The notes beneath the pieces are model-generated. The model worked only from the letters and a program-made list of their open reading frames with translations. It searched no databases and was not told the DNA's origin. This document shows, piece after piece, positions 12,327 through 63,111 of a stretch of DNA of 64,000 nucleotides (positions are counted from its first letter, which is position 1; every line of letters begins with the position of its first letter). The stretch lies in assembly GCF_020520425.1 (NCBI RefSeq), contig NC_079489.1, positions 84,705,810-84,769,809 on the forward strand, read 5' to 3'. The position numbers and the translations under genes are program-made. The stretch is from Spinacia oleracea. Taxonomy: Eukaryota > Streptophyta > Magnoliopsida > Caryophyllales > Amaranthaceae.

Positions 12327-12552
12327 CTAGTATGGCCCGACTTCATCTTGAAGCTTTGACTTCAAAGTCCGTCTTGAAAATCTCCGTGGGAGGCACCATT
12401 TTCTTCAAATAGGATAAGCTATAACTAATTACAACTATTTGATGGTTCGCAGACCATATTTGAATTGAAAAATAACTTTGGTACTTTAGACCAATTACAT
12501 TCAAATTAATGGTACGCAGACCATATTTTCTATCCTATTTGGGCCATACTAG
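12327..12552 (-). other. paired-hairpin leader cassette of element A
   Basis: The outer inverted repeat is CTAGTATGGCCC (12327-12338) and GGGCCATACTAG (12541-12552), a perfect 12-bp match. Inside are two hairpins, 12442-12457 and 12509-12524, each with stem ATGGT/ACCAT. Sense-strand loops are CTGCGA and CTGCGT. It lies about 650 bp upstream of gag. The same arrangement with changed stems is present in B, C, E and F. Confidence 0.75.
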
Positions 12553-13119
12553 TCACTTCATAACCTGCAAAACAGTACATATACAATATATATACCATTC
12601 ACCCATTCATTATCATGAATGGCCCACATAGCTGGTTAGTAAAACACATTATGCATCACGTAAACATTTGCAGCAATTAATCAAGGGCACCAATAATCTA
12701 CCAATTATTCAGTCCTTATTAATTCTAATCAAGTTGTTTTAACCTTAAGGATTTGTAGACCTAATCAAGAGTTTATGACTAAAAAGCGCTCCCACTTAAA
12801 CCAATAAATTTATATGCTTTACTAATTTTAAACATAAAAATGTATTTCTAGTCTAACCGGAAACATACAAATTTAATTAAAATTTAAAGCTCATATAAAT
12901 TTATAATTGAATCCAAAAAGTTTAATTTAATTTCAGTCGTTATTTAAATTAATTCATGATTTTAATTTTAGTAAAATAATTAGAATAAATAACATTTATT
13001 ATAATTACAATATTCAAAATTAAAATCCAAGAAAATAATTTAAATTATTAATTTTAAAATTAATTAAAATTACGTGAACTGAAATTTTCAAATTAAACAT
13101 TCAAAACGATCTAATCGTA

Positions 13120-13722
13120 ACGCAAACACCCTACGCATTGCACGCCCATGGGCCGCACGCACACAGCCATTGCTGGCCATGTGCGCGCAGCCCATGCGCT
13201 CGTCGCATAGCTGTTGCATCTCCCATCGCAAGCCATCGCACGCTTTGGTGCTCGCTGCGCGCGCGCCAGCGCTCATCGCACGCGAGCCATCGCTCGCAGT
13301 GCGCGCTCGCCAGCGCTCGCAGTGCGCGCTCGCCAGCGCTCGCTGTGCGCGCGAGCCATCGCTCGCTGTGCGCGCGAGCTATCGCTCGCTGTGCGCGCGA
13401 CATCGCTCGCTGTGCGCGCGAGCAACGCTGGGCGCAGCGCTCGTGGCACGCGAGCTTGCGCTCGCTGCGCGCGAGGCTGCGCGCTCTTGCGCGAGGCAGT
13501 GCGCGTTGTGGCGCAGCTCGCTTGCTGCCCACACGCGACTGTCTTGGCTTGCCTTTCGCCCATGCCCATTTGTTCATAGCTCGTGGCCCACGACACAAGG
13601 CAGGGCTGCTGCCTTGTGCTCGTGCACCATGCCTTGCTCATTGCATTGGTGCCGCACGGGCGACGAGCTCCCTTGCTCGTCGTCGCATGCCCGCACTATA
13701 CAACACCCCTTAAGGGTAACAC
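13120..13722 (-). repeat. GC-rich leader block with about 23-bp tandem repeats (element A)
   Basis: A sharply bounded GC-rich island in AT-rich leader. A unit like cagtgcgcgctcgccagcgctcg recurs about six times between 13290 and 13430 with drift to gctcgctgtgcgcgcgag. Open frames on both strands come from the absence of AT-rich stop codons and have no protein family signature. The block ends with a hairpin (13661-13682) and the phrase actatacaacacccc, both shared with C and F. Confidence 0.7.
13661..13682 (-). other. conserved 8-bp-stem hairpin at edge of GC block (A)
   Basis: Stem CGACGAGC / GCTCGTCG with a 6-base loop. It is also in C (48557-48578, identical stem) and F (57233-57254, one stem mismatch). 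Confidence 0.6.
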
Positions 13723-14476
13723 GAAGCGTCCATTGCTTTGTGCGTGCAAGTTATATGAACGAATCGCATAAAAAATTTAAAATTTATATTTAAAATTAAT
13801 GACAAATTAATAAATAATATTAATTTCATAATTTTAGGGCGAAAAAATCGAAAATTTATTATTCAATTGATTTCCGATTGTTATGGATTCAAGTCTAGGT
13901 CATAAAAATTTAAAATTTATCATAAATTTACAATTTTTATGGTGGTTTTTAATCATAGGTTTCTAATTAAATTATAATTAATTATGAAAATCAATTTAAT
14001 TCTAAATTATTCTAATTTTCAACAAATTAATCATAATTACAAATTAGATTGCATAATTAACAAGGCTAGGCATTCAAACTTGTTAAACATATACAGTAGG
14101 TCAATCAAAAATTCAAGATTTATCAACAAGAATCGCAAATATTTAATTTAACATCTTAAATTTACGAAATTTTGCATTCGAAAAACTAAAACCTTCGAAA
14201 AGTCATAGTTAGGCTTCGAATTTGAGAATTCTGGGTTCGGCAGAAAAATACTTTTTTTGTCAAAATTTTAGAATGCCTTTTACATGCGGGATTGACACAA
14301 AAATCACTCGATTTGGATGAGTAACAAAGAAACTGCCGAAAAACTGCGTACGTATAATTAAATAAACGCAATTTGCAATTAATTAACAATTACGAAAATT
14401 AATCACCCCTTTTAATTCTTGCAAATTTGTAATATTTAACTATGTTCATGCAAATTAGATTATGAAAATAATAAGG

Positions 14477-14491
14477 GGCTCGTGATACCAC
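14477..14491 (-). other. primer-binding site of element A
   Basis: The sense strand reads GTGGTATCACGAGCC immediately after the 5' LTR end. It starts TGGTATCA like initiator-Met-tRNA-primed plant copia elements. This fixes the right LTR as the 5' LTR and the element as minus strand. Confidence 0.75.
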
Positions 14492-15792
14492 TGTTAGGTT
14501 ATGATACATATGATATTACATAAATCATGCGGAAACAACCATTAACCCAGGAATACATATTATTTACACATAATCATATAGCATAATTTAGATGCATACT
14601 CTTTGTTGCGTGCCCTCCCTAGCTGCGCCCGAACCGAACAAGAACAAGTCTTTAGGACTCCAAGTGTCGTCCCTCCGTAGATAGTCCACAGCACGTCCGG
14701 ATCCGCCTTAAGATTGACCAACTAGAATCGCCCTTAAGGTACTAGAATTTTCGGCACTTTTGAGCAAGATGTGTGACTGAATTTTTCTCTCAAAAACTCA
14801 CTTTGAATACTTTAAAACTCGTTTTAAATTGTGAACCCAGGCCACATATTTATAGGGGTATGGAAAGAGAATTGGAATCCTATTAGGATACAAATTAATT
14901 AAACTTAGAATCCTACAAGAACTCTAATTAATTAATTTATCAAATAGAATTAGGAATTTAATCATTAACCGAACTCTGCACGTTTTAGGAATCGTGCATG
15001 AACACAAACTCACACACACACACACGGCAGCCACGATGGGCCGCCCATGCGCGTGCGTGCGAGCAGCAGCCCACGCAGCGAGGCCCACGCAGCCGCGGCC
15101 TTGGCGCGCGCTGGGCCTGCCTTGCGGTAGGCCTGGGCGCTGCCTTGGCTGGGCTTGTGGCGCGCGTTTGGCTTGCTGGGCGATGGCCTGGCTTCGAGCT
15201 GGGCCCTCGTCCGGCAGGCCTCGTCCGATGCTTATTCGTACGATACGCTTCCGATTAAATTTCCGATTCCGGAATTCATTTCCGATACGAACAATATTTA
15301 ACATTTCCGATTCGGGAATTAATTTCCGTTTCGAACAAATATTTAATATTTCCGTTTCCGGAATTATTTTCCGATTCCGATAATATTTCCGATTCTGACA
15401 ATATTTCCGTTTTCGGCAATATTTCCGATTCTGGCAATATTTCCATTTTCGATAATATTTTCCGATCGTTTCCGGAGTATTCATTTATTTGCCTTTGACG
15501 ATCTCAGCTCCCACTGAAACCAAGATCCGTCGATTCCGAATATGTATTAAATAGAGTATTCAATGCCATTAAATACTTGATCCGTTTACGTACTATTTGT
15601 GTGACCCTACGGGTTCAGTCAAGAGTAAGCTGTGGATTAATATCATTAATTCCACTTGAACTGAAGCGGCCTCTAGCTAGGCATTCAGTTCACTTGATCT
15701 CACTGAATTATTAACTTGTTAATTAATACTGAACCGCATTTATTAGACTTAACATAGAATGCATACTTGGACCAAGGGCATTATTTCCTTCA
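14492..15792 (-). repeat. 5' LTR of element A (1301 bp, full)
   Basis: Sense ends are TGAAGG...TAACA. A TATA box (CTATAAATA in sense) is at 14847-14855. About 940 bp of U3 lies to its right and about 350 bp of R-U5 to its left. U3 holds a TTCCG-rich array (15245-15475) and a GC-rich block (about 15030-15235). It matches the left LTR without a visible difference over the shared parts. Confidence 0.9.
15245..15475 (-). repeat. TTCCG-rich array in U3 (element A)
   Basis: Repeated aatatttccg / ttccgattc units, many within an 18-28 bp spacing. The array is upstream of the TATA box in the sense direction. The same array is in the LTRs of C and F. The position is that of an enhancer, but no activity is shown. 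Confidence 0.65.
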
Positions 15793-15797
15793 GTTTC
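15793..15797. repeat. target-site duplication GTTTC of element A, right copy
   Basis: Matches 6266-6270 exactly. Confidence 0.9.
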
Positions 15798-18790: not shown

Positions 18791-20790
18791 TTTTAGCATC
18801 TTGCATAATATTTTATGATCATGATTGTATGCAACATTATTATTTTGATTCAATTAAGGGAAGATTTATTTATGGCTTGAATTTGCAAAATTAATATATG
18901 ATATTAATTGATTGGAATCATTAAATCGTGATTTAATTAATTTTTGCTCAAAATAAATTTATAAAATTCCGAAATTTTTATCACAGGTTCGAAATTAACA
19001 GTTAATATCTCATAAAAATTTTCGGATTTTTTAAAATTAAATTCGTCAGATTTTAAATTATTTAATGGTTAATAAGATTAATCATGGAAATAATTTGTTA
19101 ACAATTAAAGATTTGATTTTTAATTTGTTAAATAAATCTACTGATTATCCCCTAATTTTTATACAATAGCCGAAATTTTTTGGTAATTTTTTAACTAATT
19201 TTCGGAATTTTTGTATATTAATTATTGAATTTGGTTAATTTTTATGTTTAATTCGATTAATCATAAAATTTAAGGATAACAATTAAAAATTTTGATTTTA
19301 TTTGTTAAGAAAATTCAATATATCTTCCTGGTAATTTAATTCGAATTTTTCGGATTATAATTGTTATTTTCTTGAATTATTTGAATAAAATGAGATAATT
19401 ATACCTTAAATTTTGAATTCTTGTTAGATTTAATTTTAATAAAGAGTTTAAATTGAAATCTAACTTCTAACAACCCTAAAATTCAGTTTAAGGATTGTTA
19501 ATTTATTCAAATTTTTTTGCCATTATTTTCGGATAATTAGGGCGGCGTTCCGGCGAGGCAGGGGCGGGTCTCATGCCTGCCTGCTGTTCTCTTGCTTTAA
19601 AACAATTAAAAAAAAAAAAAAAAAAAAGGAAAAGAAGAAAGGGGATTTTTCATACAATTAATTTCCAAAAAGTTTGAGTAATTTGATTTTTTTTAAAAAT
19701 TAGAAAATCAGATCTTCGTTTTGAGCATAATTCGTAATTTTCAATGAATGCAAATTCTAGATTAATGAGATTATTCTAGCCATATTTAAATAGTAATTGA
19801 ATTAAAATAATGTTAAACTTAAATTGTTTAAGTTTTTAGTATTATTTTGGAAATGTTATTTGCTTATTAATAGTTAATAAGTAAATAATTTTTGTCTAAT
19901 ATATTTTAATATTATATGCGTGTATGGAATATTATGATATTTTGTTACAGGCAAGTGACTAGTATGGCCCAAAATAGGATAGAAAATACGATCTGCGTAT
20001 CGTTTTGTATTCTTGTAAATTTTGAAATACGATCTGCGCATCGTTCTGTATTGTTGTAATTTAATTTAAAAGTTTAAATTAGATTATAAAGTTCGTATTA
20101 TGAGTTCGATGAAGTAAGAAGGTTCAATAAAAAATTCAAGGATGGAGATCCAAGAAAGATGAACAGGAACCCAAGAAGATTTGAGCTTATTTTTTAGGGG
20201 CCATACTAGGATCACATTTATTTTTATGCATTTTATATTGCCTTAAAATGCTTATTGAGTTTATGTATGTGGTTATTTAAAGCAATGTGTTCACTTTTAA
20301 TTAACCAACATAGTAAACTTAGGTCCCAAAATAATATTGAGTTTAAGTGCTTTTCCATACAACACCTATAAAGCCTTAGATCATGAGTAATAGGTTCTGC
20401 CAAAGCAGGGTGTTGCTTATAATTCCGGGGATAGTAGGGTAGGTTTTTGAAACTTACATGTTAATGTTTGGTTTAACTCAACAAAACTATCAAAAGACAA
20501 AGTTTTGGGTTTTGAAGCTAAGAGATAGGAAGATACAAAGAGTTGTTAACCTGTCTACCAAGAGTTATAATCAGTTATAATTAGTAAAATATTTACTTAC
20601 CTCGAATACTATAAATTAAAGTAGCAGGGCCAAAGTCCGTTTGATTGTAGTGGGAAGGGATCTTGGTTAATTCTTTATTCAATGGGGACTTCTAATTTTG
20701 AATAAAGGGTAGTAGTTAATTAAATTTGTTTAATTGCTACTTTTGATAAACATTATATTGAATCTTGCTTTACCTTTTATTGTAGTTATC
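18791..20790 (+). other. 5' leader of element B
   Basis: 2.0 kb of AT-rich noncoding DNA. It contains an A-run (about 19609-19627), a candidate 3' splice site (TTGTTACAG at 19942-19950), the hairpin cassette (19959-20209) and the conserved segment at 20391-20424. It lacks the large GC-rich block of A, C, E and F, except for a short GC patch near 19540-19580. Confidence 0.65.
19959..20209 (+). other. paired-hairpin leader cassette of element B
   Basis: Outer arms CTAGTATGGCCC (19959-19970) and GGGCCATACTAG (20198-20209) match perfectly. Inner hairpins: ACGATCTGCGTATCGT (19988-20003) and ACGATCTGCGCATCGT (20029-20044), with stem ACGAT/ATCGT. Compared with the ATGGT/ACCAT stem of A, C and F, base pairs 2 and 4 have changed on both sides. 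Confidence 0.78.
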
Positions 20791-23700
20791 ATGTCTGGTG
20801 CAAACAACAACTCTACTTTTAACTTGTGCCCTCTAATTGAAAACAAACTGAATGCACACAACTTCCTACAATGGGAAAAGGCTATGAGAATTGTTCTCAG
20901 AGCGGAAGGAAAAGAAAGTGTTCTTGAAAATCCACTCCCTCTTGAACCCCTGCCACAAAATGCTACTGAAGCTCAATGTCGAGCTAAACAAACTCTCCAG
21001 GATAACTCTCTGCAAGTAACATGTTTGATGCTTGCTTGCATGGAACCAGAGTATCAAAAGCGTTTTGATGGTCTGGATGCCTACACAATAATCCAGCAAC
21101 TGAAAACTTTGTTTCAGAAGAATGCTAGATTAGGGAGGTTGCATAGTATGATGGTTCAGGACGAGGGGAACTTACCTGGTGAACCTGAACATAAGGATGT
21201 TCTAATGGTCAAGAGAGGTAAGCAGTTCAAGAGTATCAATGTCATAGAAGTTAATTTAGCTACAACTACTTCTTGGGTATTTGATACCGCTTGTGGGTCG
21301 CACATTATTGGTAATGTGCAAGGACTAAAAAGAAGTAGAAGCTTGAGCAAAGGCGAAGTAGATCTCCGAGTAGGCAATGGAGCAAGAGTTGCTGCTTTAG
21401 CTGTAGGAGATTATAGTTTACGCTTGCCTTCTGGTTTAATATTAGAACTTTATAATTGTTATTACGTTCCAGTTATTACCAAGAACATAATTTCTATTCC
21501 GATTTTGGATTCGGAAGGTTTTTCATTTCAAATTATGAATAATTGTTGTTCAGCATATTTGAATGGTATGTTCTATGTCTCTGCTAAATTATCAAATGGT
21601 TTATATGTACTAGACTTACAAAACCATATCTATCACATAGAAAACAAGAAACACAAACCAAGTGATTTGAACCCTACTTACCTATGGCATTGTCGATTAG
21701 GCCATATAAGCTCAAAGCGCATAGAGAAACTTCATAAGGATGGAATTCTCAAATCATTTGATTTTGAATCATTTGAAGTATGTGAATTTTGCTTAATGGG
21801 AAAAATGACAAAGTCTCCTTTCACAGGCTCAAGTGAAAGGGCCAATGATCTTTTAGCCCTCATACATACTGATGTTTGCGGACCTATGAGTACTTTGGCT
21901 AGGGGAGGGTACGGGTATTTCATTACTTTTACTGATGATGTGAGCAGATTTGGATATGTTTACCTCATGCGACATAAGTCGGAATCCTTTGAAAAGTTCA
22001 AGGAATTCCAAAATGAAGTACAAAACCAACTTGGAAAGAAAATTAAAGCATTGCGATCCGATCGTGGTGGTGAATATTTATCTCAAGAGTTTGGTGATCA
22101 TTTGAAAGATTGTGGAATACTTTCGCAATTGACTCCACCAGGGACACCACAGTTGAATGGGGTTTCCGAAAGAAGGAATCGAACTTTATTAGATATGGTT
22201 CGGTCCATGATGAGTCTTGCTAACCTTCCTGCCTCATTTTGGGGATTTGCGCTTGAAACAGCGGCATTCACACTCAACAGAGCTCCGTCCAAAGCAGTAG
22301 AAAAGACGCCATATGAGATGTGGACTGGAAAAGTTCCAAAATTGTCTTTTCTAAGGACATGGGGTTGTGAAGTTTATGTAAAACGTTTACTTTCTGATAA
22401 GCTTTCACCCAAGTCCGATAAGTGTCTTTTTGTGGGTTACCCAAAACAGACTAAGGGATACTACTTCTACAACCAAAGCGAAAACAAAGTGTTTGTTGCT
22501 CGCGATGGTGTCTTTCTGGAAAAGGAGTTTATTTCCAGAAAAACAAGTGGGAGTAATGTATATCTCGAAGAAATTCGAGATGAGCAACAAATGGATGAGG
22601 TTCACACCTCGTCAGAGACGACCCAGCATGAAAATGCTCAGGAGGCGGTGCATTCCATTCATGCGCCTTCTACCGTCCCACTTGGAGATAATCCATGCGA
22701 AGTCCCTCAACCTAATGAGGTGGAAACTTCTCCTGTTGTTCCCCAACGTAGGTCTAGTAGGACTGTCATTCCGTCAAAGAGATATATTGATTTCCTTTTG
22801 ACTGAAAGTTCTGAAATAGAGATTTTAGAACATGAGGAACCTACTAGCTACACAAATGCTTTGACGAGTCAAGACTCCGAGAAATGGCTTGAAGCCATGA
22901 GATCCGAAATGGATTCGATGTTTGAAAATCAAGTATGGGACTTGGTTGCTTTGCCTGATGGGGTTAAACCCATAGGTTGCAAATGGATTTTCAAACTGAA
23001 AAAGGACAAAGATGGAAACATTGATGTCTTTAAGGCAAGACTAGTGGCAAAAGGTTTTAGACAAATTCATGGTATTGACTATGATGAAACTTTCTCACCA
23101 GTAGCCATGCTGAAATCCATTAGGATAATTCTTGCGATTGCTGCCTTTCATGACTATGAGATCTGGCAGATGGACGTCAAAACCGCTTTCTTGAATGGGT
23201 TCTTGAAAGAGGATGTGTACATGACACAACCACAAGGTTTTGAAGATCCAAACAGTCCAAGAAAAGTTTGCAAGCTTAAGAAGTCCATTTATGGGCTTAA
23301 GCAAGCATCCCGGAGTTAGAACCTCAGATTTGATGAGGCAGTCAAATCTTTTGGCTTCCTCAGAAATGAAGAGGAATCTTGTATATACAAGAAGTTGAGT
23401 GGGAGTAGTATTGCTTTCCTAGTCTTGTATGTGGATGACATACTTCTCATAGGAAACGACAAGACCATGCTTGAGTCAGTCAAGGAATGGCTTAAAAGTT
23501 GTTTTTCCATGAAAGACCTAGGAGAAGCTGAATACATCTTGGGAATAAGGATCCATAGAGATAGATCCAAAAGGCTGATTGGACTTAGCCAAGAGACTTA
23601 TATTGATAAGGTTCTTGCAAGGTTCAAGCTGGAAAACTCCAAAAGAGGTTTCATTCCCATGCAACATGGCATTTCACTTGGCAAGACTCAGTGTCCTTCG

Positions 23701-38611: not shown

Positions 38612-39064
38612 TAAAGGAAATGTCTCCTTCACCCAAGGTGCATTAAGTCTAATACCAAGGTTCAGATTAATTACGAACAATTAATCCAGTGAGATCAAGT
38701 GATCGGAACAGTTAGCTGGAGCAATGCTTACGATCAGTGAGTTCTAATCTATATTAGGCTCACAACTTACTCTTGACTGAACCTATAAGGTCACACCAAT
38801 GACATGTAACAGACACCGGATTAAATGAATTGAAAATTCATTTAATAGCTTTCTGGGAATTAGTTCGGAAAAACATAATATATGATATGACGTTGGATCG
38901 GAATCGTATATCGTATCGCGAATATTCTTAAGCTGGGAGAAACGAATAATCGTATCGTAAAACGGTAATTCATTGTGTACGATACGATAAATAATAGCCG
39001 TAAGGCGTTCGTCACAAATACGAGCTGCAATGGAGCTGCTGGCCCATCGAGCTAAGCACGCATG
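38612..39064 (+). repeat. 5' LTR of element E, left part (split by element F)
   Basis: Begins near taaaggaaatgtctcc (TG end apparently mutated to TA). It shows inverted similarity to LTRs of A, C and F around the phrases aattaatccagtgagatcaag and ttactcttgactgaacc, so it is an LTR of a related plus-strand element. At 39064 it is cut by F. The LTR resumes after the second GCATG at 59601 and ends at 60120 with cccctaca next to a primer site. Confidence 0.7.
39060..39064. repeat. target-site duplication GCATG of element F, left copy
   Basis: Matches 59601-59605. Confidence 0.88.
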
Positions 39065-40507: not shown

Positions 40508-40522
40508 GTTTCCCACTTGTCC
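40508..40522 (-). other. polypurine tract of element F
   Basis: The sense strand reads GGACAAGTGGGAAAC next to the LTR start. Confidence 0.65.
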
Positions 40523-42401: not shown

Positions 42402-42416
42402 GTCTCCCACTTGTCC
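42402..42416 (-). other. polypurine tract of element C
   Basis: GGACAAGTGGGAGAC in sense, as in A. Confidence 0.7.
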
Positions 42417-42953
42417 TTAGGGACAAGTGTGCATTACCTAATTCCTTTGTCACTCGATGCTTGCTCTTGAACATAAGGTAAGAGTTGTCATCCTTATTAT
42501 GTCCATAGGTGTTTCTCGGTTTCAGAGTTCAATTGATCAAATAAACAGATAATCATAGCCTATGATTCATCCAAGCACGGCCATGCATTTTACAGTTTCT
42601 AGCTCTCCGAGTGGCGTTGTACAACTTTTAAGTATCTCATCCCGATTTATGGGAGGACAATCCCAATCTTGCGATCTTGAGATTAGACTTCGTTTGATAG
42701 GTGATTACCTGAGCGTTGCCTTTATAGCGTCCTTTTACGGTGCGACGGTTGGTCAACGTCAAAGCAACCGGTTCTCAAACAAGTAATCTCAAATCACTCA
42801 GGTATTGAGGATTTAGTGTCTAATAATTTTAATGAAATTTACTTATGACAGATTTTCATCTCTTACAGTAAAGTTTCATAGGTCTATCCGATACTAGTCT
42901 TCCCAAAGTAAGTATCTATGCAAATGATTTTGACATTGCCATGTCCACATAGT

Positions 42954-45900
42954 TCAAGAAACAGAACTACTAGTCATCTTGCATTCTAGTCGTCTAACGT
43001 TTTCTATGCGTCCAATTTTATAGAAAACTCCGAACTTCCTTAGCCATATAGCTTCCTTTGCTGCTTCATGTGCAGCAATGTACTCCGCTTCAGTTGTAGA
43101 ATCCGCAATGGTGCTTTGCTTAGCACTTTTCCAGCTTACTGCACCTCCGTTGAGGCAGAAGACAAACCCAGACTGTGATCTGAAATCATCTTTGTCGGTT
43201 TGGAAACTTGCGTCTGTATAGCCTTTAACAATTAATTCATCATCTCCACCATAGACGAGGAAGTCATCTTTGTGCCTTTTCAGGTACTTCAGAATATTCT
43301 TGGCAGCAGTCCAATGTGCCTCTCCTGAGTCTGACTGGTATCTGCTCGTAGCACTGAGTGCGTACGCAACATCTGGGCGTGTACATATCATAGCATACAT
43401 TATTGAACCAATCAATGATGCATACGGAATCCCATTCATTCGTCTACGCTCATCAAGTGTTTTTGGGCACTGAGTCTTGCTTAGAGTTATTCCATGAGAC
43501 ATGGGTAGGTAATCTCGCTTGGAGTCTGCCATCTTGAACCTATCAAGCACCTTATTGATATAAGTGCTTTGACTAAGTCCAATCATCTTTTTAGATCTAT
43601 CTCTGTAAATCTTGATGCCCAATATGTACTGTGCTTCTCCTAGATCCTTCATCGAAAAACATTTCCCAAGCCAAATCTTGACAGAGTTCAACATAGGAAT
43701 GTCATTTCCAATAAGTAATATGTCATCGACATATAATACTAGGAAAGAAATTTTGCTCCCACTGACCTTCTTGTATACACAAGATTCGTCTGCGTTCTTG
43801 ATGAAACCAAAGTCACTGACTGCTTCATCAAAACGTATATTCCAGCTCCTGGATGCCTGCTTCAATCCGTAGATTGATTTCTTTAGCTCGCATACCTTTT
43901 TAGCATTCTTTGGATCCTCAAAATCTTCAGGCTGTGTCATAAACACAGTTTCTGTAAAAACGCCGTTTAAGAAAGCGGTTTTGACATCCATCTGCCATAT
44001 TTCGTAATCGTAATATGCATCGATTGCTAACATTATCAGAATAGACTTTAGCATTGCAACTGGTGAAAAGGTTTCATCGTAATCCACACCGTGGACTTGC
44101 CTGTAACCTTTTGCAACCAATTTAGCTTTGAAAACTTCAAGTTTCCCATCCTTGTCCTTTTTCAGTTTGAAAACCCATTTGCTTCCAATGGCTTGGTAGC
44201 CATCTGGCAAATCGACCAAATCCCATACTTGGTTTTCTGACATGGAGTCTAATTCAGATTGCATGGCTTCTTGCCATTGCTTGGAGCTAGGGCTCGTCAT
44301 AGCTTGTTTGTAAGTCGCAGGTTCATCACTTTCAAGTAATAGAACGTCATAGCTCTCGTTCGTCAAAATACCTAAGTACCTTTCCGGTTGAGATCTATAT
44401 CTCTGCGATCTACGCGGGGTTACATCTCTAGATTGACCATGATCCTCACCAGATTCTTCTAAAGATCTCTGAGTTTCATCTTGAATGTCATCTTGAGCAT
44501 TCTCTAGAGTTTGTTGTTCGACTCGAATTTCTTCGAGGTCTACTTTTCTCCCACTTGTCAATTTGGAAATGTGATCCTTCTCCAAAAAGACACCATCTCG
44601 AGCAACAAACACCTTGTTCTCAGATGTATTGTAGAAGTAATACCCCTTTGTTTCCTTTGGATAGCCCACAAGGATACATTTGTCAGATTTTGGATGAAGT
44701 TTGTCTGAAATTAATCGTTTGACGTATACTTCACATCCCCAAATCTTAAGAAAAGACACTTTTGGAGGCCTTCCAAACCATAACTCATATGGAGTCTTTT
44801 CGACAGCTTTAGACGGAGCTCTATTTATAGTGAGTGTAGTTGTATTTAGTGCATGTCCCCAAAATTCTATTGGAAGTTTGGCCTGACCCATCATTGACCT
44901 AACCATGTCTAGTAAGGTTCTGTTCCTCCGTTCCGACACACCGTTCCATTGTGGTGTTCCGGGAGGGGTCAATTCTGATAGAATTCCACATTCTTTCAGA
45001 TGGTCTTCAAATTCATAGCACAGATACTCACCGCCTCTATCAGACCGCAGTGCCTTAATCTTCTTGCCTAATTGATTCTCTACTTTACTTTGAAATTCCT
45101 TGAATTTATCAAAGGATTCAGACTTATGCTTCATTAGGTAGACATAACCATACCTACTGAAGTCATCAGTGAAAGTGATAAAGTAGCTGAAACCACCTCT
45201 AGCATTTGTACTCATTGGTCCACATACATCTGTATGGATTAAACCCAATAGTTCAGTTGCTCTTTCTCCAACTTTAGAGAAAGGTTGCTTTGTCATTTTG
45301 CCAAGTAAACATGATTCGCACTTACCATAATCCTCTAAGTCAAATGGTTCTAGAATTCCTTCCTTTTGAAGTCTTTCCATGCGTTTCAAGTTAATATGGC
45401 CTAATCGACAATGCCACAGATAGGTGAGATCTGAATCATCCTTTTTGGCCTTTTTGGTATTTATGTTATAAACTTGTTTGTCGTGATCTAATAAATAAAG
45501 TCCATTGACTAATCTAGCAGATCCATAAAACATCTCTTTAAAATAAAACGAACAACTATTGTCTTTTATTAAAAAGGAAAATCCCTTAGCATCTAAGCAA
45601 GAAACTGAAATGATATTTTTAGTAAGACTTGGAACATGGAAACACTCTTCCAGTTCCAAAACTAGCCCAGAGGGCAACGACAAATAATAAGTTCCTACAA
45701 CTAATGCAGCAATCCGTGCTCCATTTCCCACTCGTAGGTCGACTTCACCCTTGCTTAACTTTCTTCTTCTTCTTAATCCCTGAGAATTGGAACATAAGTG
45801 TGAGCCACAACCTGTATCTAATACCCAAGAAGTTGAATTAACAAGTTTACAGTCTATAACGAAAATACCTGAAGATGGAACGACTGTTCCATTCTTCTGA

Positions 45901-46709
45901 TCTTCCTTTAGCTTCAAGCAATCTCTCTTCCAATGCCCCTTCTTCTTGCAGTAGAAGCATTCGGATTCAGAAGTGGGTTGACTGACCTTCCTTTTTTCAG
46001 ACTTGGCGCCAGTTTGCTTAGTTGGGCTGGCCTTGTTGCCACCTTTCTTAGCATTCCTCTTCTTTCCAGATTTCTTGAACTTGCCCCCACGCACCATAAG
46101 CACATCTTGCTTATCACTTTTGAGCGTCTTTTAAGCGGTCTTCAGCATACCGTGAAGCTCAGTGAGCGTTTTGTCCAGACTATTCATACTGTAGTTCAGT
46201 ATGAACTGATCATACCCGTTATGAAGAGAATGGAGGATGGTGTCTACAGCCATTTCCTGAGAGAATTGCTGATCCAGCCGACTCATATTCTCAATGAGTC
46301 CAATCATTTTGAGAACATGTGGACTTACGGGCTCGCCTTTCTTAAGCTTGGTCTCAAGAATTTGCCTATGAGTCTCGAATCTTTCGACTCGAGCCAGATC
46401 TTGGAACATGTTCTTCAACTCACTGATGATTGTGAAAGCATCTGAGTTGATGAACGTTTTCTGCAGATCTGCACTCATGGTGGCGAGCATTAGACATTTC
46501 ACATCCTAGTTGGCATCAACCCAACGATTGAGGGCTGCCTGAGTGACCCCTTCGCCTGCGGCTTCGGGCATCGCCTCTTCCAGGACATACTCCTTTTCTT
46601 CCTGCATAAGAACTATTTGCAAGTTCCTTTGCCAGTCAAGGAAGTTTTTCCCGCTCAACTTCTCCTTTTCGAGAATTGATCGAATGTTGAATGAATTGTT
46701 GTTTGCCAT
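42954..46709 (-). pseudogene. gag-pol of element C with two stops and truncated RNase H
   Basis: Starts MANNNSFNIRSILEKEKL at 46709. Gag is interrupted by TAG at 46506-46508 and by TAA after HGMLKTA (46128-46130); all pieces share one frame. Then come a basic linker, zinc knuckle CFYCKKKGHWKRDC, protease LDTGCGSH, integrase ([23 protein letters not shown]), RT with YVDD, and RNase H up to EAIWLRKF. There the frame runs into noncoding sequence and stops at 42954. Relative to A, about 520 bp are deleted (A 7457-7979), removing the last RNase H part and about 230 bp of 3' noncoding DNA. From LKEDQKNGT onward it is almost the same protein as A, while the Gag before the knuckle is unrelated in detail to A's and closer to B's. 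Confidence 0.9.
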
Positions 46710-47368
46710 AATTAAAACTACAATTGAAAAGAATAAACAAATAAATAATCATTCATAGTTTCTCTTAATAAACTTAAATTCTAGCATACATGCATAATTC
46801 AATGTTCATTAAGCATTTTATTCAAGTTATGTGTTCCGGCAGGTGTGAATAAAATGATTCCAAGATCCTAAAATCCATTGAAGAATTAAGCACATTATGT
46901 ATTTAGACTTAATTCTAAAATCTTTTAGGTAAGCAAAAGCCTTTTGCTAATAGTCTAGAAACTATTCTTGGTTGATAGGCACGTCTAAGAACTTATTAGG
47001 TAAACCTATCGATTTTTCCACGACATAAAAGGACTCCTTACTTATATCGTTGAGTTTCACCAAAACTAACATGTACTCACAATTATTTGTGTACCTTACC
47101 CCTTTAGTATCGATAAGTAACACCTCGCTATGGCGGAAAACTATTACTAAGATGGATGAAGAAAGGATATCCAAGTAAGTGTTATTTTGGCATGGCACCT
47201 TTTAACTCAATTTTTAAGTTTGGAACTTAAAGCTCTTACTATGTTGGTTAGATTTTAAGTGAACTAAAATCCTTAATCATGCAACATAATCAAGCTTTGA
47301 TCTCATGCATTTTTAAGACATATTTAAAAGCAATAAATAACTTAAAACATGCATAAGATAAATGTGAT

Positions 47369-47599
47369 CTGGTATGGCCCGACTTCATCTTGAAGCTTCA
47401 ACTTCAAAGTCCGTCTTGAAAATCTCCGTGGGAGGCGCCATTTTCTTCAAATAGGATAAGCTATAATTAAACTAATTACAACTATTTGATGGTACGCAGA
47501 CCATATTTGAATTGAAAAACAATTTTGGTACTTTAGACCAATTACATTCAAATTAATGGTACGCAGACCATATTTTCTATCCTATTTGGGCCATACTAG
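47369..47599 (-). other. paired-hairpin leader cassette of element C
   Basis: Outer arms CTGGTATGGCCC (47369-47380, one mismatch) and GGGCCATACTAG (47588-47599). Hairpins at 47489-47504 and 47556-47571, both ATGGT/ACCAT with sense loop CTGCGT. Confidence 0.75.
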
Positions 47600-48169
47600 T
47601 CACTTCATAACCTGCAAAACAGTACATATACAATATATACCATTCACCCATTCATTATCATGAATGGACCACATAGTTGGTTAGTAAAACACGTTATCAT
47701 CACATAAATATTTGCAGCAATTAATCAAGGGCACCAATAATCTACCAATTATTCAGTACTTATTAATTCTAATCAAGTTGTTTAACCTTAAGGGATTTGT
47801 AGACCTAATCAAGAGTTCATGACTAAAAATGCTCCCACTTAAACCAATAAATTCATATGCTTTACTAATTTTAAACATAAAAATGTATTTCTAGTCTAAC
47901 CGGAAACATACAAATTTAATTAAATATTAAAGCTCATATAAATTTATAATCGAATCCATTAATTTAATTTATTTCAGTTGAATTAAACGAATTTAAATTA
48001 ATTCAAGATTTAACTTTAGTAAAATAATTACTATAAATAAAATTTATAATAATTATAATATTCAAAATTAAATCCAAGAAAACAATTTAAATTTCGAATT
48101 TTAAAATTAATTAAAATCGTTTCCGAGCTGAAAATTAAAATTAAAATCAAAACGTACCAATCGTCGCAA

Positions 48170-48625
48170 GACGAGGCACTCTGGGCTTGCGCCCAAGCCC
48201 CATCAAGCTACGAGGCAGCGCGCCCCGCTCGATTGATCGTAGCACAAAGCATACACAGCCACACGCCACAGCTAGCCACGCTGCGCGCAGCCTTGTGCTG
48301 TGTCGCGTGTTGCTGCGCAGGCCAGCGCGCGCCGAGCGAGGGATCGCTCCCTGCTCGCGCGTTCTGCTTGCTGGCTGGGCGAGCCAGGCGCGCTGTGGCG
48401 CGGCAGCATCGCTGCCCACACGCGTCTTGCTCGTTGCTCGTGCCTTGCATCGTCGCCCTCGCCCATCGTATAGCACATACGGCACACACGCACAGGCTCC
48501 CTTGCCTCGTGCGCGCGCCATGCGCTATGTTGCTCGCTCCATTCGTACCGCACGGGCGACGAGCTCCCTTGCTCGTCGTCGCGTGCCCGCACTATACAAC
48601 ACCCCTTAAGGGTAACACGTAGCTT
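48170..48625 (-). repeat. GC-rich leader block of element C
   Basis: GC-rich island corresponding to 13120-13722 of A, but without the long run of 23-bp units. It ends with the same hairpin (48557-48578) and actatacaacacccc phrase. Its open frames are not considered coding. Confidence 0.65.
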
Positions 48626-49373
48626 CCATTGCTTTGTGCGTGCAACATTAATGAGCGGTTTATAAAAATTTAAAATTTTTAATTCAAAATTAATGACAAA
48701 TTAATAAAACATATTAATTTCATAATTTTAGGGCGAAAAATCGAAAATTTATTAATCAATTAATTTCCGATTAACATGGATTCAAATCTAGGTCATAAAA
48801 ATAAAAAATTTAACATAAATTAACAATTTTTATGGTGGATTTAATCATAGATACCTAATTAAACTATTAATTAATTATGAAAATCAAATTAATTCTAAAT
48901 TATTCGAATTTCAACAAATTAATCATAATTACAAATTAGGTTGTATAATTAACAAGGCCAGGCATTCAAACTTGTTAAACATATACTGTAGGTCAATAAA
49001 AAAATTCAAGATTTATCAACAAGAATCGCAAATACTTAATTTAACATCTTAAATTTACAAACTTTTGCGTTCGAAAAACTAAAACCTCCGAAAAGTCATA
49101 GTTAGGCTTCGAATTTGGGAATTTTGGGTTCGGCCGAAAAATATATTTTATTTGTCAAAAATTTAGAATGCCTTTTACATGCGGAATTGACACAAAAATC
49201 ACTCGATTTAAATGAGTAACGAAGAAACTGCCGAAAAACTGCGTACATATAATTAAATAAACGCAATTTGCAATTAATTAACAATTACGAAAATTAATCA
49301 CCCCTTTTAATTCCTTGCAAATTTGTGAAATTTAACCATGTTTATGTAATTTAGATTATGAAAATAATAAGAG

Positions 49374-49387
49374 GCTCGTGATACCAC
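49374..49387 (-). other. primer-binding site of element C
   Basis: The sense strand reads GTGGTATCACGAGC next to the 5' LTR. Confidence 0.7.
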
Positions 49388-50786
49388 TGTTAGGTTATGA
49401 TTCATATGACAAAACATAAATCATGCGGAAAAACCATAAAGCCAGGAAAGCATATTATTTACACATAATCATTTAGCATAGTTTAGGTGCATACACTTTG
49501 TTGCGTGCCCTCCCTAGCTGCGCCCGAACCGAACAAGAACAAGTCTTTAGGACTCCAAGTGTCGTCCCTCCGTAGATAGTCCACAGTACGTCCGGATCCG
49601 CCTCAAGATTGACCAACTAGAATCGCCCTTAAGGTACTAGGATTTTCGGCTAGGTTAGTGCAAGTGTATGGCTGAATTTTTCTTTCAAAAACTTACCTTT
49701 TGAATACTTCAATTGTATCTGTAAATAATGACCCTAGGCACTTATTTATAGAGGTATGGAAAAGGAACTGGAATCCTATTAGGATACTAATTAATTAAAC
49801 TAGAATCCTAGTAGGACTCTGACTTAATTAATTTATCCTTTTAGGATTAGGAATTTAATCATATATCAAATCCTAATAGCTTTAGGATTCGTGTACGAAC
49901 ACAAACATACACACACACGCACGGCAGCCGACGAGGGGCGCCTATGCGCGCGCGGCCTGTGAGCTCGCAACCCACGCCACGAGGCCCACACGCTGCCGTG
50001 GCCTTGGCGCGCGCTGGGCCTGCCTTGCGGTGGGCCTGGGCGCTGCCTTGGCTTGGGGCGTTTGTGGCGCGCTGGCTTGCTGGGCGATGGCCCGACTTCG
50101 TGCTGGGCCTTCGCCCGGCAGGCCTCGTCCGATGCTTATTCGTACGATGCGCTTCCGGTTAAATTTCCGGTTCCGGAATTCATTTCCGATACGAACAATA
50201 TTTAATATTTTCGATTCGGGAATTAATTTCCGTTTCGAACAAATATTTAATATTTCCGTTTCCGGAATTATTTTCCGACTCCGATAATATTTCCGATTCT
50301 GACAATATTTCCGTTTCCGGCAATATTTCCGATTCCGGCAATATTTCCATTTCCATTAATATTTTCCGATACGTACCATGTTTCCGTTTCCGGCAACATC
50401 TACGACTTGGATAATATTTATATTTCCGATACGATCCATATTTCCGTTTCCGGCAATATCATCGTTTCCGGAGTATTCATTTCTTGCTTGTGACGATCTC
50501 AGCTCCCACTGAAACCAAGATCCGTCGATTCCGAATATCCATAGATGGAGTATTTAATGCCATTAAATACTTGATCCGTTTACGTACTATTTGTGTGACC
50601 CTACGGGTTCAGTCAAGAGTAAGTTGTGGATTAATATCATTAATTCCACTTGAACTGAAGCGGCCTCTAGCTAGGCATTCAGCTCACTTGATCTCACTAA
50701 ATTATTAACTTGTTAATTAATACTGAACCGCATTTATTAGACTTAACATTGAATGCATACTTGGACCAAGGGTACTATTTCCTTCA
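49388..50786 (-). repeat. 5' LTR of element C (1399 bp)
   Basis: TATA (tttata on plus strand) near 49744-49750. The TTCCG array at 50152-50475 and GC block at about 49920-50145 lie in U3. Confidence 0.9.
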
Positions 50787-50791
50787 GTATT

Positions 50792-55500
<4,709 letters not shown>

Positions 55501-56076
55501 CACGCAATTTAAACAAGTCATTGGCATTTTATTCACATTTATTGTTCCGGCAGGTGTGACTAAAATGAATCCAAGATCCTAAAATCATCGAATAATTAAG
55601 CACACTATGTATTTAGACTCAATTCTAAAATATTTTAGGTAAGCAAATCCTTTGCTAATAGTCTAGAAACTACTCTTGGTTGATAGGTACGTCTAAGAAC
55701 TTATTAGGTAAACCTATCCCGTTTGCCACGACATAAAAGGACTCCTTACTTATATCGTTGAGTTTCACCAAAACTAACATGTACTCACAATTATTTGTGT
55801 ACCTTACCCCCTTAGGATCAATAAGTAACACCTCCCTATGGCGGAAAACTATTACTAAGATTTATGTAAAGGTTATCCAAGTAAGTGTTATTTTGGCATG
55901 ACACCTTTTAACTCAATTTTTAAAGTTCGGAACTTAAGGCTCTTACTATGTTGGTTAGATTTTAAGTGAACTAAAATCCTTAATCATGCAACATAATCAA
56001 GCCATAATCTCATGCATAATTAAGACATATTTAAAGCAATAAATAACTTAAAGCATGCATAAGATATAAATGTGAT

Positions 56077-56332
56077 ATAGTATGGCCCGACTTCATCTTG
56101 AAGCTTCAACTTCAAACTCCGTCTTGAAAATGGATTGGAAACTCCGTCTTGAATTTCACCACGGGAGGCGCCATTTTCTTCAAATAGGATAAGGTATAAT
56201 TGAAACTAATTACAACTATTTGATGGTACGTAGACCATATTTAAATAAAAAAACTTTGGTGCATTAAACCAATTTTACATTCAAATTAATGGTACGCAGA
56301 CCATATTTTCTATCCTATTTGGGCCATACTAG
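56077..56332 (-). other. paired-hairpin leader cassette of element F
   Basis: Outer arms ATAGTATGGCCC (56077-56088, one mismatch) and GGGCCATACTAG (56321-56332). Hairpins at 56223-56238 (sense loop CTACGT) and 56289-56304 (CTGCGT), stems ATGGT/ACCAT. Both stems are intact although F's coding region is decayed. Confidence 0.72.
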
Positions 56333-56884
56333 TCACTTTTCATTACCTGCAAAACAGTACATTTACAATATACCATTCACCCATTCATTTATCAATGAAT
56401 GACCCACATAGCAAGTTAGTTGAACATATTATGCATCACTTAAATATTTGCAGCAATTAATCAAGGCTTCCAATAATCTACAAATTATTCAATCCTTATT
56501 AATTTTAATCGACTTGTTTTAACCTTAAAAGAATGTAGACCTAATCAAGAGTTTATGACTAAAGGCTCCCACTAAAACAAAGAAATTTACATGCTTTACG
56601 AATTTTAAACATAAATTGTATTTCCTAGTCCAACCGGAAACTTACAAATTTAATTAAAATTTAAAGCTCATATAAAATATTATTTAAATCCTTTATTTTA
56701 TTTTCAGTTGATTAAATTAATTAATCTAAATTTTATCAAGGTTTTAATTTTAGTAAAATAATTAGTATAAATAAATTTATAATAATTAAATTATTCAAAA
56801 TTAAATTCCGAGAAAAAATTAAATTACGAAATTAAATTTAATTAAAATCGTTTTCAACCGAAAAATTAAAATTAAAACGAACCA

Positions 56885-58051: not shown

Positions 58052-59600
58052 TGTTAGGTTATGACAAATATAAAACATATATTTCATGCGGAAAAACCAT
58101 AAAGCCAAGAATCCAAATTAATTGCCACATAGTCAATTAGCATAATCTAGGATACATACATGTGACGCTTGCCTTCCCTAGCTGCTCCCGAACCGAACAA
58201 CAACAAGTTTAGGACTCCAAGTGTCGTCCCTCCGTAGATAGTCCACAGCACGTTCGGATCCGCCTTAGATTTAATTAACTAGAATATAGTCTAAGGTTTT
58301 ATGTTATTCGAAACTTAATTATATTGGCAAATTATTAAGTTAGTTTAATCTTAAATTATATGAATACTTGTGATTGATGTATTATGAATTGTGATTATGT
58401 ATCACCTATTTATGGGGAGGAAATATCGGACTTAGATTTCCACTAGGATTCAATTTACTAATTTGATTAGAATTCTATTAAAATTAATCCTTTGAATTAA
58501 GTGTTTAATCAAACAACTACCTCTAATGGATTTAGGAAAACAGTTAATCGGACAATCCTAAGCGTTTAAGGATTCGTAGCGTTGCCCGAACACACACACA
58601 CACGCACAACCCACGAAGGGGCGTGCTGTGCGCGCGACTCGGCCCAGCAGGTAGTCACGCGGCCCATTGCAAGGGCGCTGCTGCTGCTGGCCTTGCCTTG
58701 CTCGGGTGGGCCTGGCCTTGCTTCGTGCTTGGCTGGGCCTGCCTTGCTTGACGGGCTGTTGCTACTCGCTTGCTGCGCTTGCGCGGGCTTTGCTAGGCGC
58801 GGGCCTAGCTTCGTGCCAGTTGCCTTGCGCGTTGGGCCTGGGCCTTGCGTACGTGCTGCTTGGCTGGGCCTGCGTGCCTTGGCTTGCTTCTCTGTTGCCT
58901 TGCGCGCATGGGCTTGCTGGGCGCAGGCCTAGCTTCGTGCTGGGCCTTGCGTCTAGCAAGCTCGTCCGATGTTTATTTCGTACGTTGCGCTTCCGATTCG
59001 TTTTCCGATTCGGAATTCACTTCCGATTCGTACAATATTTAATATTTCCGATTCCGGAATAAATATCCGTTTCGAACAAATATTTAATATTTCCGATTTC
59101 GATAATATTTCCGATTCCGGTAATATTTCCGTTTCAGTCAATATTTTCGATTTCGTTAACATTTCATTTCCAATAATATTTTCCGATACGTACCATGTTT
59201 CCGTTTCCGGCAACATCTATGACTTGGATAATATTTATATTTCCGTTACGATCCATATTTCCATTCCCGGCAATATCATCGTTTCAGGAGTATTCATAAT
59301 TTTCCTTCTGACGATTTCAGCTCCCACTGGAACCGAGATCCGAATATCCATAACTGGAGTATTTAATGCACTTAAATACTTGATCCGTTCACGTACTATT
59401 TGTGTGACCCTACGGGTTCAGTCAAGAGTAAGCTGTGGATTGATATTATTAATTCCACTTGAACTGAAGCGGCCTCTAGCTAGGTATACAACTCACTAGA
59501 TCTCACTGAATTATTAACTTGTATAATTAATTAATACTGAACCGCATTTATTAGACTTAGCATTGAATGCATACTTGGACCAAGGGCATTGTTTCCTTTA
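58052..59600 (-). repeat. 5' LTR of element F (1549 bp)
   Basis: About 106 bp longer than the 3' LTR, owing to an extra GC-rich piece at about 58817-58930 that looks like a partial duplication of neighbouring sequence. The plus-strand end is TTTCCTTTA instead of ...TTCA. The TTCCG array is at 58985-59290. Confidence 0.87.
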
Positions 59601-60342: not shown

Positions 60343-60351
60343 CTCGAAGTA
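60343..60351. repeat. 9-bp target duplication CTCGAAGTA of the MULE, left copy
   Basis: Matches 61420-61428. Confidence 0.88.
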
Positions 60352-61419: not shown

Positions 61420-61428
61420 CTCGAAGTA
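61420..61428. repeat. 9-bp target duplication of the MULE, right copy
   Basis: Matches 60343-60351. Confidence 0.88.
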
Positions 61429-62084
61429 TGAGTGTTTGGGCGTTTTTGTTAATTAACAAATTAAAATTAACAAATTCGGAAAGTTTTTCAATTAATTGGT
61501 CGTCCTAAACTACTCGGAATTTATTGAAACTTTGCCCTACTGTTCTTGGGTATGTTTTAAAATTATGGTAAAATTTTTGGCCACAAATGTTAAGTATAAA
61601 CCCTAATTTCACTTTCCCCAAATTTGTAATTTTTAGATCGCTAATTGATTTTTTAAATAATTTAGATATGGAAATTTGGTTAATTGAGGAAGGGAATGTA
61701 ATTTCACATAAAGTGGCAGATTTTAAAAATTATTGGATTAAAATTTTGATTAGATTCGTTAATTTTAATCGTCACTTAAACCAAATTGATAAAAATCTGA
61801 ATTTTGAATGTTTAGAACGATTTAAAATTTTAGATTCGATTATCATAAATGTTTAAATTTATGTTGACATTGTTCGTTCATTAAATTTGAATATTGTTAG
61901 CCTAGATTTAATAAATTTTGCAAAATTGGATTGTTGTAAAAATTAATTAAATCGTAAACTTGTTATTTTTCGAAAATAAAAACGATTAATTTGTTAATTT
62001 TGTGAAGAATAACTAATGAAAATATGGTTCGTGAAAATGAATTTTTTTTTGGATTAGTTGGTTTGTATGGCACGAACCAAAGGC

Positions 62085-62420
62085 ACGAACAAGGGGTGTG
62101 CGGTGCGTGTGGCTCGTCGTAGCCCATGCGCGCTGCCTCCCCGCAGCACAGGCGCAACAACGCGGGCAGCCAGCAAGCGAGCTGGCGTGCCGCGCGCGCT
62201 GGCCAAGAGAGCGAGCAAGGCAGGCAGGCCTTGGCTTGCGAGCTGCAAGCAAGCAAGGGCGTGGCTGCCTTACCTTGCACGCAACGACGAGCAGGAAGCA
62301 CAACACGAGCACAGCAATGCCACGAGCATCGATGGCTGCGAGGGTGTGCGGTGCTTGCGAGGCATGGGCGATGAGCTCGTGGCCTCGTAGGCCACAACGC
62401 ACATGGCAGTGTTGGGCTGG
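62085..62420 (+). repeat. GC-rich leader block of element E
   Basis: GC-rich island in the AT-rich leader, in the position of the blocks in A, C and F. Frames on both strands are open but have no family signature. Confidence 0.6.
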
Positions 62421-62873
62421 GTGCAAGCCTAGCCCGCATTGCACAATTTTGGCTAATTTTGTTCGTTGGGCTTTAAAATTTAATATTTGCATTAAAATGG
62501 CTAACGGGGATAATTAATTAATTATTTTATTTAACTTGGGCCGGGCCGTGAGTTTAATTAAATATTTAATATTAAATTATCCGAAATGAAATAATGGTTT
62601 GAGTAGGAGCCGCTTAATGAAATTAAAATGAAATAATTATTTTAATTATTTTCGTAGGGAGCTTTACTTAATTAAATTAAATTTTGATTAGAATAAATTC
62701 TAAGGATTAATAATTCGGAATTGATTAATCTTTTAGGACGTGTTTATGTGAACGTGATTTTTAAATAAATCACTTAAATACTTGCATAATTTAATTGGGC
62801 CATTCGTTTTAGGACACGAATGGATAAATGCATAGAATATATATATTTTATGTAATGCAGGTACTCAAAGTGA

Positions 62874-63111
62874 CTAGTATGGCCAATCTAGGATAGTTAA
62901 ATACGGTCTGCGAACCGTTTTATCTTTGAATGTAAAGTTTTAAATATGGTCTGCGTACAATTGAAATTTTGATGTAATTTTTTTAATTATTTCAAGTATT
63001 TCTAGTTTAGAACTTTAAGTTAGCATTGAATGAAGATTCAAGACGATTCCAAGCTAACAAGATGGTGAAGAAGATTCGATGCTTCAAGACAAGAGTTTTG
63101 GGCCATACTAG
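62874..63111 (+). other. paired-hairpin leader cassette of element E
   Basis: Outer arms CTAGTATGGCCA (62874-62885) and GGGCCATACTAG (63100-63111), 11 of 12 paired. Hairpin 1 ACGGTCTGCGAACCGT (62903-62918) has stem ACGGT/ACCGT, a third stem version. Hairpin 2 (62946-62961) is ATGGT/ACAAT with one mismatch and loop CTGCGT. Confidence 0.75.

Follow-up and report, generated by a model that had tools for sequence, protein, structure and literature searches.

The stretch of DNA examined here, a window of 64,000 nucleotides from Spinacia oleracea (assembly GCF_020520425.1, contig NC_079489.1, positions 84,705,810 to 84,769,809 of the forward strand), harbors five retrotransposons with long terminal repeats (LTRs), referred to as A, B, C, E and F, each of which carries in its leader a cassette of two hairpins enclosed by an inverted repeat. 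A and B are of the Ty1/copia type, with matches to RVT_2, rve and gag_pre-integrs; a piece from the gag region of B shows 99% identity to two NCBI proteins of S. oleracea, and the open gag-pol frame of A (window positions 7690-11772, minus strand, stop to stop) has rve at 528-625 ahead of RVT_2 at 865-1109, the order of integrase before reverse transcriptase (RT) that marks this superfamily. The LTRs of A are 100% identical over their common part of 479 bp and those of B are 99.85% identical over 654 bp; hence, both elements inserted recently. From self-matches (14491-15797 and 6270-6827), the 3' LTR of A seems to lack an inner part that is present in its 5' LTR. A primer-binding-site (PBS)-like sequence, CAGTGGTATCACGAGCC in A, C and F, TGGTATCATGAGCC in E and TGGTATCAG in B, presumably fits the initiator tRNA, and where such a site was found, it lies 1.2-2.7 kb from the cassette. 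The cassette is thus placed between PBS and gag, as are the packaging (psi) and dimer-linkage (DLS) signals of LTR retroelements. A distance of about 580-660 nt to the gag ATG, as proposed by a first-pass annotation of this DNA, holds in A, B, C and E (the gag ATG of E is at 63704) but not in F, which has no gag and was wrongly described as carrying a leader in front of it. All 30 cassette starts with sequence context, taken from the window and from loci fetched elsewhere in the genome, lie in copia-type elements, as judged from a PBS-like site upstream or from gag/pol or a non-autonomous body downstream.

The paired-hairpin cassettes are indeed present at the five places reported by the first-pass annotation, with lengths of 226 (A), 251 (B), 231 (C), 256 (F) and 238 bp (E), although several details needed correction. 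Both arms of the 12-nt inverted repeat are exact in A and B only; in C, F and E, a single mismatch affects one of the two arms. The closing stem, P1, is longer than was described: GTGACTAGTATGGCC pairs with GGCCATACTAG, and past a bulge of 1-2 nt TCAC follows, except in E, which ends in TTATCC. With this extension, the cassettes occupy 12327-12557 in A (minus strand; P1 arms 12542-12556 and 12327-12337, TCAC 12322-12325), 19954-20209 in B (plus strand; P1 arms 19955-19969 and 20199-20209), 47369-47604 in C (minus strand), 56077-56337 in the non-autonomous element F (minus strand) and 62869-63111 in E (plus strand). The inclusion of the closing stem in the support for the fold was overstated, since this stem is nearly invariant across leaders and consequently gives no covariation. 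The 12-nt arm has 18,290 + 18,376 exact matches in the 894,210,420-base genome, and its reversed sequence, used as a control, has 5 + 4. By itself, a 12-bp inverted repeat in a single leader is not significant, as shuffles reach 12-14. The longest word common to the three leader types that we sampled (A/C/F, E and B) measures 17 nt and lies at the 5' arm, whereas 300 shuffles gave a maximum of 12 and mostly 8-9; a 12-nt word at the 3' arm is likewise common to all three. Both arms are present in 36 cassettes of the window and the first 28 loci, a set in which three single arms stand without a partner (L017 5381, L024 1304, L024 6813); the cassette body was lost in locus L059, and once later loci are added, cassette lengths range from 225 to 256 bp. 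Four LTR near-matches, CTAGAATCGCCC, were found in homologous LTRs, which is near chance level. Below the cassette, an 11-nt word, AACCAACATAG, is common to all three leader types outside the helices found (12197-12207, minus strand, in A; 20303-20313, plus strand, in B).

The two hairpins occupy 12509-12524 and 12442-12457 in A (with TAGGATAG at 12530-12537), 19988-20003 and 20029-20044 in B (TAGGATAG at 19975-19982), 47556-47571 and 47489-47504 in C, 56289-56304 and 56223-56238 in F, and 62903-62918 and 62946-62961 in E. Nine of the ten loops in the window read CTGCGN, as first noted, the exception being the second loop of F (CTACGT). The stems are also as first described, ATGGT/ACCAT in A, C and F, ACGAT/ATCGT twice in B and ACGGT/ACCGT in hairpin 1 of E; in addition, hairpin 2 of E has a broken pair (ATGGT/ACAAT). 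The covariation reported for them, in which pair 2 goes from T-A to C-G and pair 4 from G-C to A-T, is real, but the events are few and fixed by subfamily. We typed 118 cassette starts from the window and the fetched loci, including nine selected because they combine ACGAT with an E-type start and eleven selected as B type: 76 carry ATGGT/ACCAT twice, ten ACGAT/ATCGT twice and five ACGGT/ACCGT followed by ATGGT/ACCAT, and the remaining variants are one-sided changes or losses. The ACGAT copies with an E-type start, considered as a new compensatory event, were rejected: eight of the nine are uncompensated (ACGAT/ACCGT) and the ninth has a deletion, which indicates decay and not new covariation. 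The word ACGATCTGCG after the arm occurs 92 + 96 times in the genome, with a B-type start in 91 of the 100 matches listed; an alignment of 12 B-type copies shows hairpin 2 unchanged throughout and two one-sided changes in hairpin 1.

The loops point to a part of the hairpin that is able to pair with a copy of itself. In a scan of 98 cassette starts, from which three without recognizable hairpins were left out and which allowed at most two mismatches so that strongly changed loops are missed, non-majority letters at loop positions 1 to 6 numbered 13, 0, 6, 2, 3 and 30 in 190 loops. Hence, 43 of the 54 such letters fall on positions 1 and 6, outside the self-complementary core, which reads TGCG in most of these loops; the conserved UGCG of the RNA is the part able to self-pair, through two G-C and two G-U pairs only. 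The predicted energies of the hairpins are -2.7 to -4.8 kcal/mol alone, as compared with -14.5 to -18.7 kcal/mol for the stem-loop dimers. Single-sequence folds of eight cassettes lie 3.5-7.2 standard deviations (sd) below those of shuffled sequences, and in the folds of A, B, C and F, hairpin 1 is predicted to pair with hairpin 2. The stems of E fit local hairpins or self-dimers better because pairing of its hairpin 1 with hairpin 2 would include a C-A mismatch.

The cassette is, as far as its sequence can tell, only the first (5') domain of a predicted structured leader of about 780 nt that extends from just past a splice-site-like CAG/G to about 100 nt before gag. The three leader types are well separated: synonymous divergence (dS) over pol and gag pieces amounts to 0.73-1.9 by piece between A and the E-type elements, and to 1.87-2.24 between A and B, where the proportion of synonymous differences (pS), 0.69-0.71, is near saturation. 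Between cassette and gag, three helices, II, III and IV, show compensatory and G-U changes. Helix II (A, 12057-12136, minus strand, 5' arm 12132-12136 and 3' arm 12057-12061; B, 20365-20438, plus strand, arms 20365-20369 and 20434-20438) occurs as CTTGC/GCAAG, CTTAC/GTAAG, CTTAT/ATAAG and CCTAT/GTAGG. Helix III, AATAGT/ACTATT in A (11911-11928, minus strand), with counterparts in B (20563-20582, plus strand), C (46949-46966, minus strand), F (55657-55674, minus strand) and E (63454-63471, plus strand), is also found as AGTAGT/ACTATT, AGTAAT/ATTACT and AGTTAT/ATAATT. Helix IV comprises 11 bp and has the variants CATTTTATTCA/TGAATAAAATG, CGTTTCATTCA/TGAATGAGATG and TTCTTTATTCA/TGAATAAAGGG; it lies at 11781-11823 in A (minus strand, arms 11813-11823 and 11781-11791) and at 20671-20709 in B (plus strand, arms 20671-20681 and 20699-20709), its arms are at 46846-46856 and 46814-46824 in C (minus strand) and at 63560-63570 and 63596-63606 in E (plus strand), and its 3' arm in F is at 55525-55535 (minus strand). 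Across a set of 35 leaders, from which L017_4604- and L024_6808+ were left out and which includes the three leaders on which helices II to IV were discovered, pair 4 of helix II is A-T in 18, G-C in 15 and G-T in one, and pair 2 of helix III is A-T in 14, G-T in 12 and G-C in six. The presence of G-U states beside Watson-Crick states favors RNA over DNA as the level at which these sequences act.

We counted helices of at least 5 bp that are formed by all three leader types and contain at least two two-sided changes, and compared the counts with those from 400 column shuffles (200 full and 200 within-block). The whole leader has seven such helices (antisense: three) vs a maximum of two in the full and three in the within-block shuffles, and the part below the cassette has four (antisense: none) vs a maximum of two in either. 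With two alternative sets of leaders, the totals were seven and four helices (antisense: three and one), and the counts below the cassette four and three, with shuffle maxima of 2-3. Below the cassette, covarying helices are thus confined to the sense strand in each of the three choices (4, 4 and 3 vs 0, 0 and 0 antisense). A weaker measure, helices of at least 6 bp with one two-sided change, was matched by up to three of 200 shuffles. RNAalifold scored the cassette-to-gag leaders of A, B and L019 (an E type) at -74.0 vs -28.6 (sd 4.5) for 30 column shuffles, with -57.0 for the antisense strand, and five leaders at -83.1 vs -25.3 (sd 4.1) when shuffled and -62.1 for the antisense strand. Over the 35 leaders, P1 has a diversity of 0.010, all six helices together one of 0.099 and the other columns one of 0.189, and none of 500 random block sets was as low as the helices. 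Selection for an RNA fold, as first proposed from the hairpins, is therefore supported, and more strongly by helices II to IV than by the region to which it had been ascribed.

Eight of the 30 cassette starts (F, L009, L012, L013, L016, L018, L026 and L028_5264-) belong to elements without a match to gag, integrase or RNase H (tblastn, 1e-6), in which an RT-like remnant with 31-49% identity and short DNA matches to the A pol (about 45-205 nt, 75-87%) are all that is left. Their similarity to A starts with the cassette and ends at A offset 776, 776, 778, 778, 783, 785, 825 and 825, F being one of those that end at 778. Helix IV ends at A offset 777; the gag-less leaders are thus kept to about the end of this helix. 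In those for which enough downstream sequence was read, similarity to A returns at offset 4909, beyond the RNase H match, in L013 and L016 (90-96%), and at offset 4953 in F (91%). The helix pairs in these leaders are mostly intact: hairpin 1 and helix II are fully so in eight of eight, and helix IV keeps 9-10 of its 11 pairs. An acceptor-like TTTT(1-3 nt)ATTGTAG occurs at 15 of the 30 starts, all of them with gag, and at none of the eight without; variants are present in B and E. Since gag-less elements keep the leader, a need for gag translation does not explain its retention. The leader of L028_5264- is 98.7% identical to that of the autonomous L025, and at most 97.7% identical to any other non-autonomous leader. 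From self-matches, F itself appears to extend between LTRs at about 39062-40512 and 58052-59598 and to harbor element C (41005-50788) as a nested insertion; the body of F contains a tandem array (53635-53874) with self-matches shifted by 6 bp.

The A-type leader precedes two different Gags. The first, gag1, is found in A, L010, L021_5240- and L025, and the second, gag2, in C, two copies in L017, L020, L021_8059+, L022, L023, L024_6025- and L027; L011, L024_6808+ and L028_9207+ have no gag class, and L017_4604- was treated as the element L017_5240- seen a second time. Identity between the Gags of A and L023 is 33%; each of the two scores as a CCHC-knuckle protein, that of A just under the Pfam cut-off. 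A and L022 share 98.7% identity in the leader and 98.4% in pol, and homology between them breaks at A offset 896, which is 14 nt downstream of the first base of the ATG, to resume at 1698, adjoining the knuckle. In this pair, gag was swapped as a block (A offset 897-1697; window positions about 10860-11661). A leader tree of 18 elements (four gag1, six of the nine gag2 and eight non-autonomous) keeps neither Gag class together (approximately unbiased [AU] test, p 6e-7 and 1e-4). Two gag types seem to follow E-type leaders as well, that of L014 and the window's E vs that of L015 and L019 (best match to the A Gag 37-42% vs 27%), so that gag exchange may be recurrent. By these sequence comparisons, the leader behaves as a modular and apparently cis-acting RNA. 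The gag region of B (20791-21650) gave no CCHC knuckle match and leads directly into Pol_BBD, and a CCHC-like stretch is present in an Amaranthus relative (P0045); B is possibly a young element with a deletion in gag, mobilized in trans.

For a sense-strand structured RNA that is kept by gag-less copies and is indifferent to the type of Gag, the best explanation is a signal that acts in cis on the RNA genome. In this Ty1/copia lineage, the leader is most likely a packaging and dimerization signal of the genomic RNA, an assignment to which we give about an even chance of being right. Of the roles that the first-pass annotation had named, packaging, dimerization and Gag binding remain the best candidates and translation is unlikely as the sole one, in both cases because elements without gag keep the leader. 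The leader would mark genomic RNA for packaging and dimerization in the manner of retroviral psi and dimer-linkage regions, Gag or RT would recognize it, and the two hairpins, weak alone and strongly self-complementary, would hold two RNAs together, those of autonomous and non-autonomous elements included; the ensuing co-packaging would explain the exchange of leaders and gags. More tentatively, and with the balance of probability tilted against it, the cassette might act as a dimer-linkage switch in which an intramolecular form, with hairpins 1 and 2 paired to each other, is replaced by the pairing of two separate RNAs, and autonomous/non-autonomous heterodimers are packaged.

Several observations weigh against assigning this function to the leader. 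The covariation of the hairpins appears to amount to about two or three old events, since the later stem changes that we sampled are one-sided or uncompensated, and by our own estimate, about one hexaloop in seven would have a self-complementary core of four by chance. Taken alone, the covariation term of the consensus fold exceeds shuffles by only about 1.6 sd. The length of the longest helix was matched by none of 200 shuffles in the first alignment, but by 5-13 of 200 in the other two. Within A-type leaders, the diversity of the helices (0.067) is hardly below that of the other columns (0.081; P1 0.013). When non-autonomous elements are compared in pairs, leader and body do not differ in favor of the leader in their conservation, and a single origin of the non-autonomous leaders is not rejected (AU p 0.059). 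Finally, two quite different Gags with the same leader are unexpected for a Gag-specific signal, although both carry a CCHC knuckle.

Recognition by the host would account for this indifference to Gag type, and equally for the retention of the leader in gag-less elements. The main rival to packaging and dimerization is accordingly an RNA export or stability element that recruits host factors to carry long unspliced RNA to the cytoplasm, a reading that we regard as possible though rather unlikely. A recent review names precedents, the MusD transport element (MTE), with a kissing loop and a pseudoknot, and the structured leader of cauliflower mosaic virus (CaMV), both with a role in export (PMC12786077). 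By description, the spinach leader resembles both, which are structured RNAs acting in cis in an LTR element and a pararetrovirus; however, export gives no particular reason for paired near-palindromic hairpins.

A device for the splicing or translation of gag, either a regulated leader intron between the CAG/GT-like site and TTGTAG or an internal ribosome entry region, seems distinctly less probable. A donor-like CAG/GT or CAG/GC just 5' of the cassette was present in seven of seven leaders scanned, such as CAG/GTTATG in A (12565-12567, minus strand) and CAG/GCAAGT in B (19948, plus strand), and acceptor-like TTGTAG sites precede the gag ATG, as does ATTGTAG in A (11685-11691, minus strand; the ATG begins at 11676), the use of either A site in splicing being a guess. 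Nine leaders contain 33-88 ATGs from the PBS to 850 nt past the cassette start, which makes plain scanning implausible. Against such a device, the eight elements without gag keep the domain, and the 5' site, T-rich and then CAG/G, reads as an acceptor too. If these putative sites were used, which is a guess, donor and acceptor would form a retroviral arrangement with the packaging signal inside an intron.

Two further readings can be given little credence. An extended contact with the primer tRNA, in which CUGCG of the loops binds the CGCAG of the initiator tRNA's D arm in the way of the Ty1 boxes, would suit the PBS with its presumed fit to that tRNA, but by our estimate chance alone would place a 5-nt complement in a 75-nt tRNA in about 7% of trials, and the hairpins lie 1.2-2.7 kb from the PBS. 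A DNA-level element, be it a captured miniature inverted-repeat transposable element (MITE) or paired sites of a DNA-binding protein with half-site symmetry, would match the look of a 226-256 bp unit with terminal inverted repeats and the symmetric stem changes, which also fit a homodimer site; we reject it on context, the unit being seen in copia-type carriers at 30 of 30 starts and not outside them, and on strand, since the helices below the cassette covary in the sense orientation only and the asymmetric loop is always sense-oriented in typed cassettes. A 5'-3' cyclization was rejected as well: the longest complements between leader and 3' end measure 10 nt in A and C and 12 nt in B, at no shared place.

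In line with the first-pass annotation, which knew of no named element of this kind, the Rfam search it had proposed gave no match in the window at gathering scores (4227 families); with the A and B leaders and E up to 5, it returned three weak sub-threshold matches, on the antisense of B and in sense in A (snR13, E 1.9). Searches of the open-license PMC literature gave no description of the leader among the papers listed. In viral contigs, the 16-nt pattern matched in two, with no cassette in the surroundings shown, the properly spaced cassette pattern had no matches, and the RT piece no relative. The nearest analogue is the GACG hairpin pair of murine leukemia virus (MLV)-like retroviruses, for which two later papers cite Kim and Tinoco 2000. 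As described there, these are two same-loop leader hairpins between PBS and gag, near palindromic dimerization stems (PMC5874298, PMC516450). The spinach cassette shares with them two adjacent same-loop hairpins and a self-complementary core with two G-C pairs; it differs in having the hexaloop CUGCGN instead of the GACG tetraloop, in belonging to a plant Ty1/copia lineage with a far longer leader, and in that its dimerization is predicted. Given this difference in the loop, the leader is not a member of the MLV motif. With psi/DLS signals in general, it shares position, conserved RNA structure and retention by copies that need packaging in trans.

Among plant elements, barley BARE2, the Ty1/copia partner of BARE1, lacks Gag, keeps packaging and dimerization signals and is packaged in trans, according to the portion consulted of PMC3735527. 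The gag-less spinach elements likewise keep their leader, a likeness of description, and the spinach leader has a covarying multi-helix structure of which that portion contains none for BARE1/BARE2. In einkorn, the autonomous/non-autonomous pair RLG_Cereba/RLG_Quinta has gag regions about 65% identical between flanks more than 90% identical, attributed to template switching (PMC11302176, in part). The spinach lineage similarly has autonomous and non-autonomous partners and, in A and L022, a diverged gag between near-identical flanks, but RLG_Cereba and RLG_Quinta are Gypsy-type centromeric elements, unlike the spinach copia lineage, and the word "packaging" is absent from that paper, which hence treats no leader signal of this kind under that word. 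The term "dimer" was not found in a 2025 review on host factors of plant elements, and its packaging passages, as far as shown, name no cis-acting signal (PMC12786077); "hairpin" is absent from the sections seen of the Sirevirus motif paper (PMC2829016). Elsewhere in the window (31187-32746, minus strand), a 519-residue open frame has a sub-threshold E1-E2_ATPase match (25.1 bits vs a cut-off of 28.1).

The RNA signals by which plant LTR retrotransposons select their own genome are poorly known. If the tentative dimer-linkage switch exists, plant copia elements would possess a retroviral-style system of dimerization built on a new loop motif, and the switch would drive template switching around the leader, thereby creating the observed gag swaps and leader exchange. 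The leader offers a defined structure of less than 850 nt, with natural compensatory variants, gag-less carriers and two Gag partners, so that packaging, export and translation are separable by ordinary mutants and probing. It would also provide a handle on how non-autonomous elements make use of autonomous ones.

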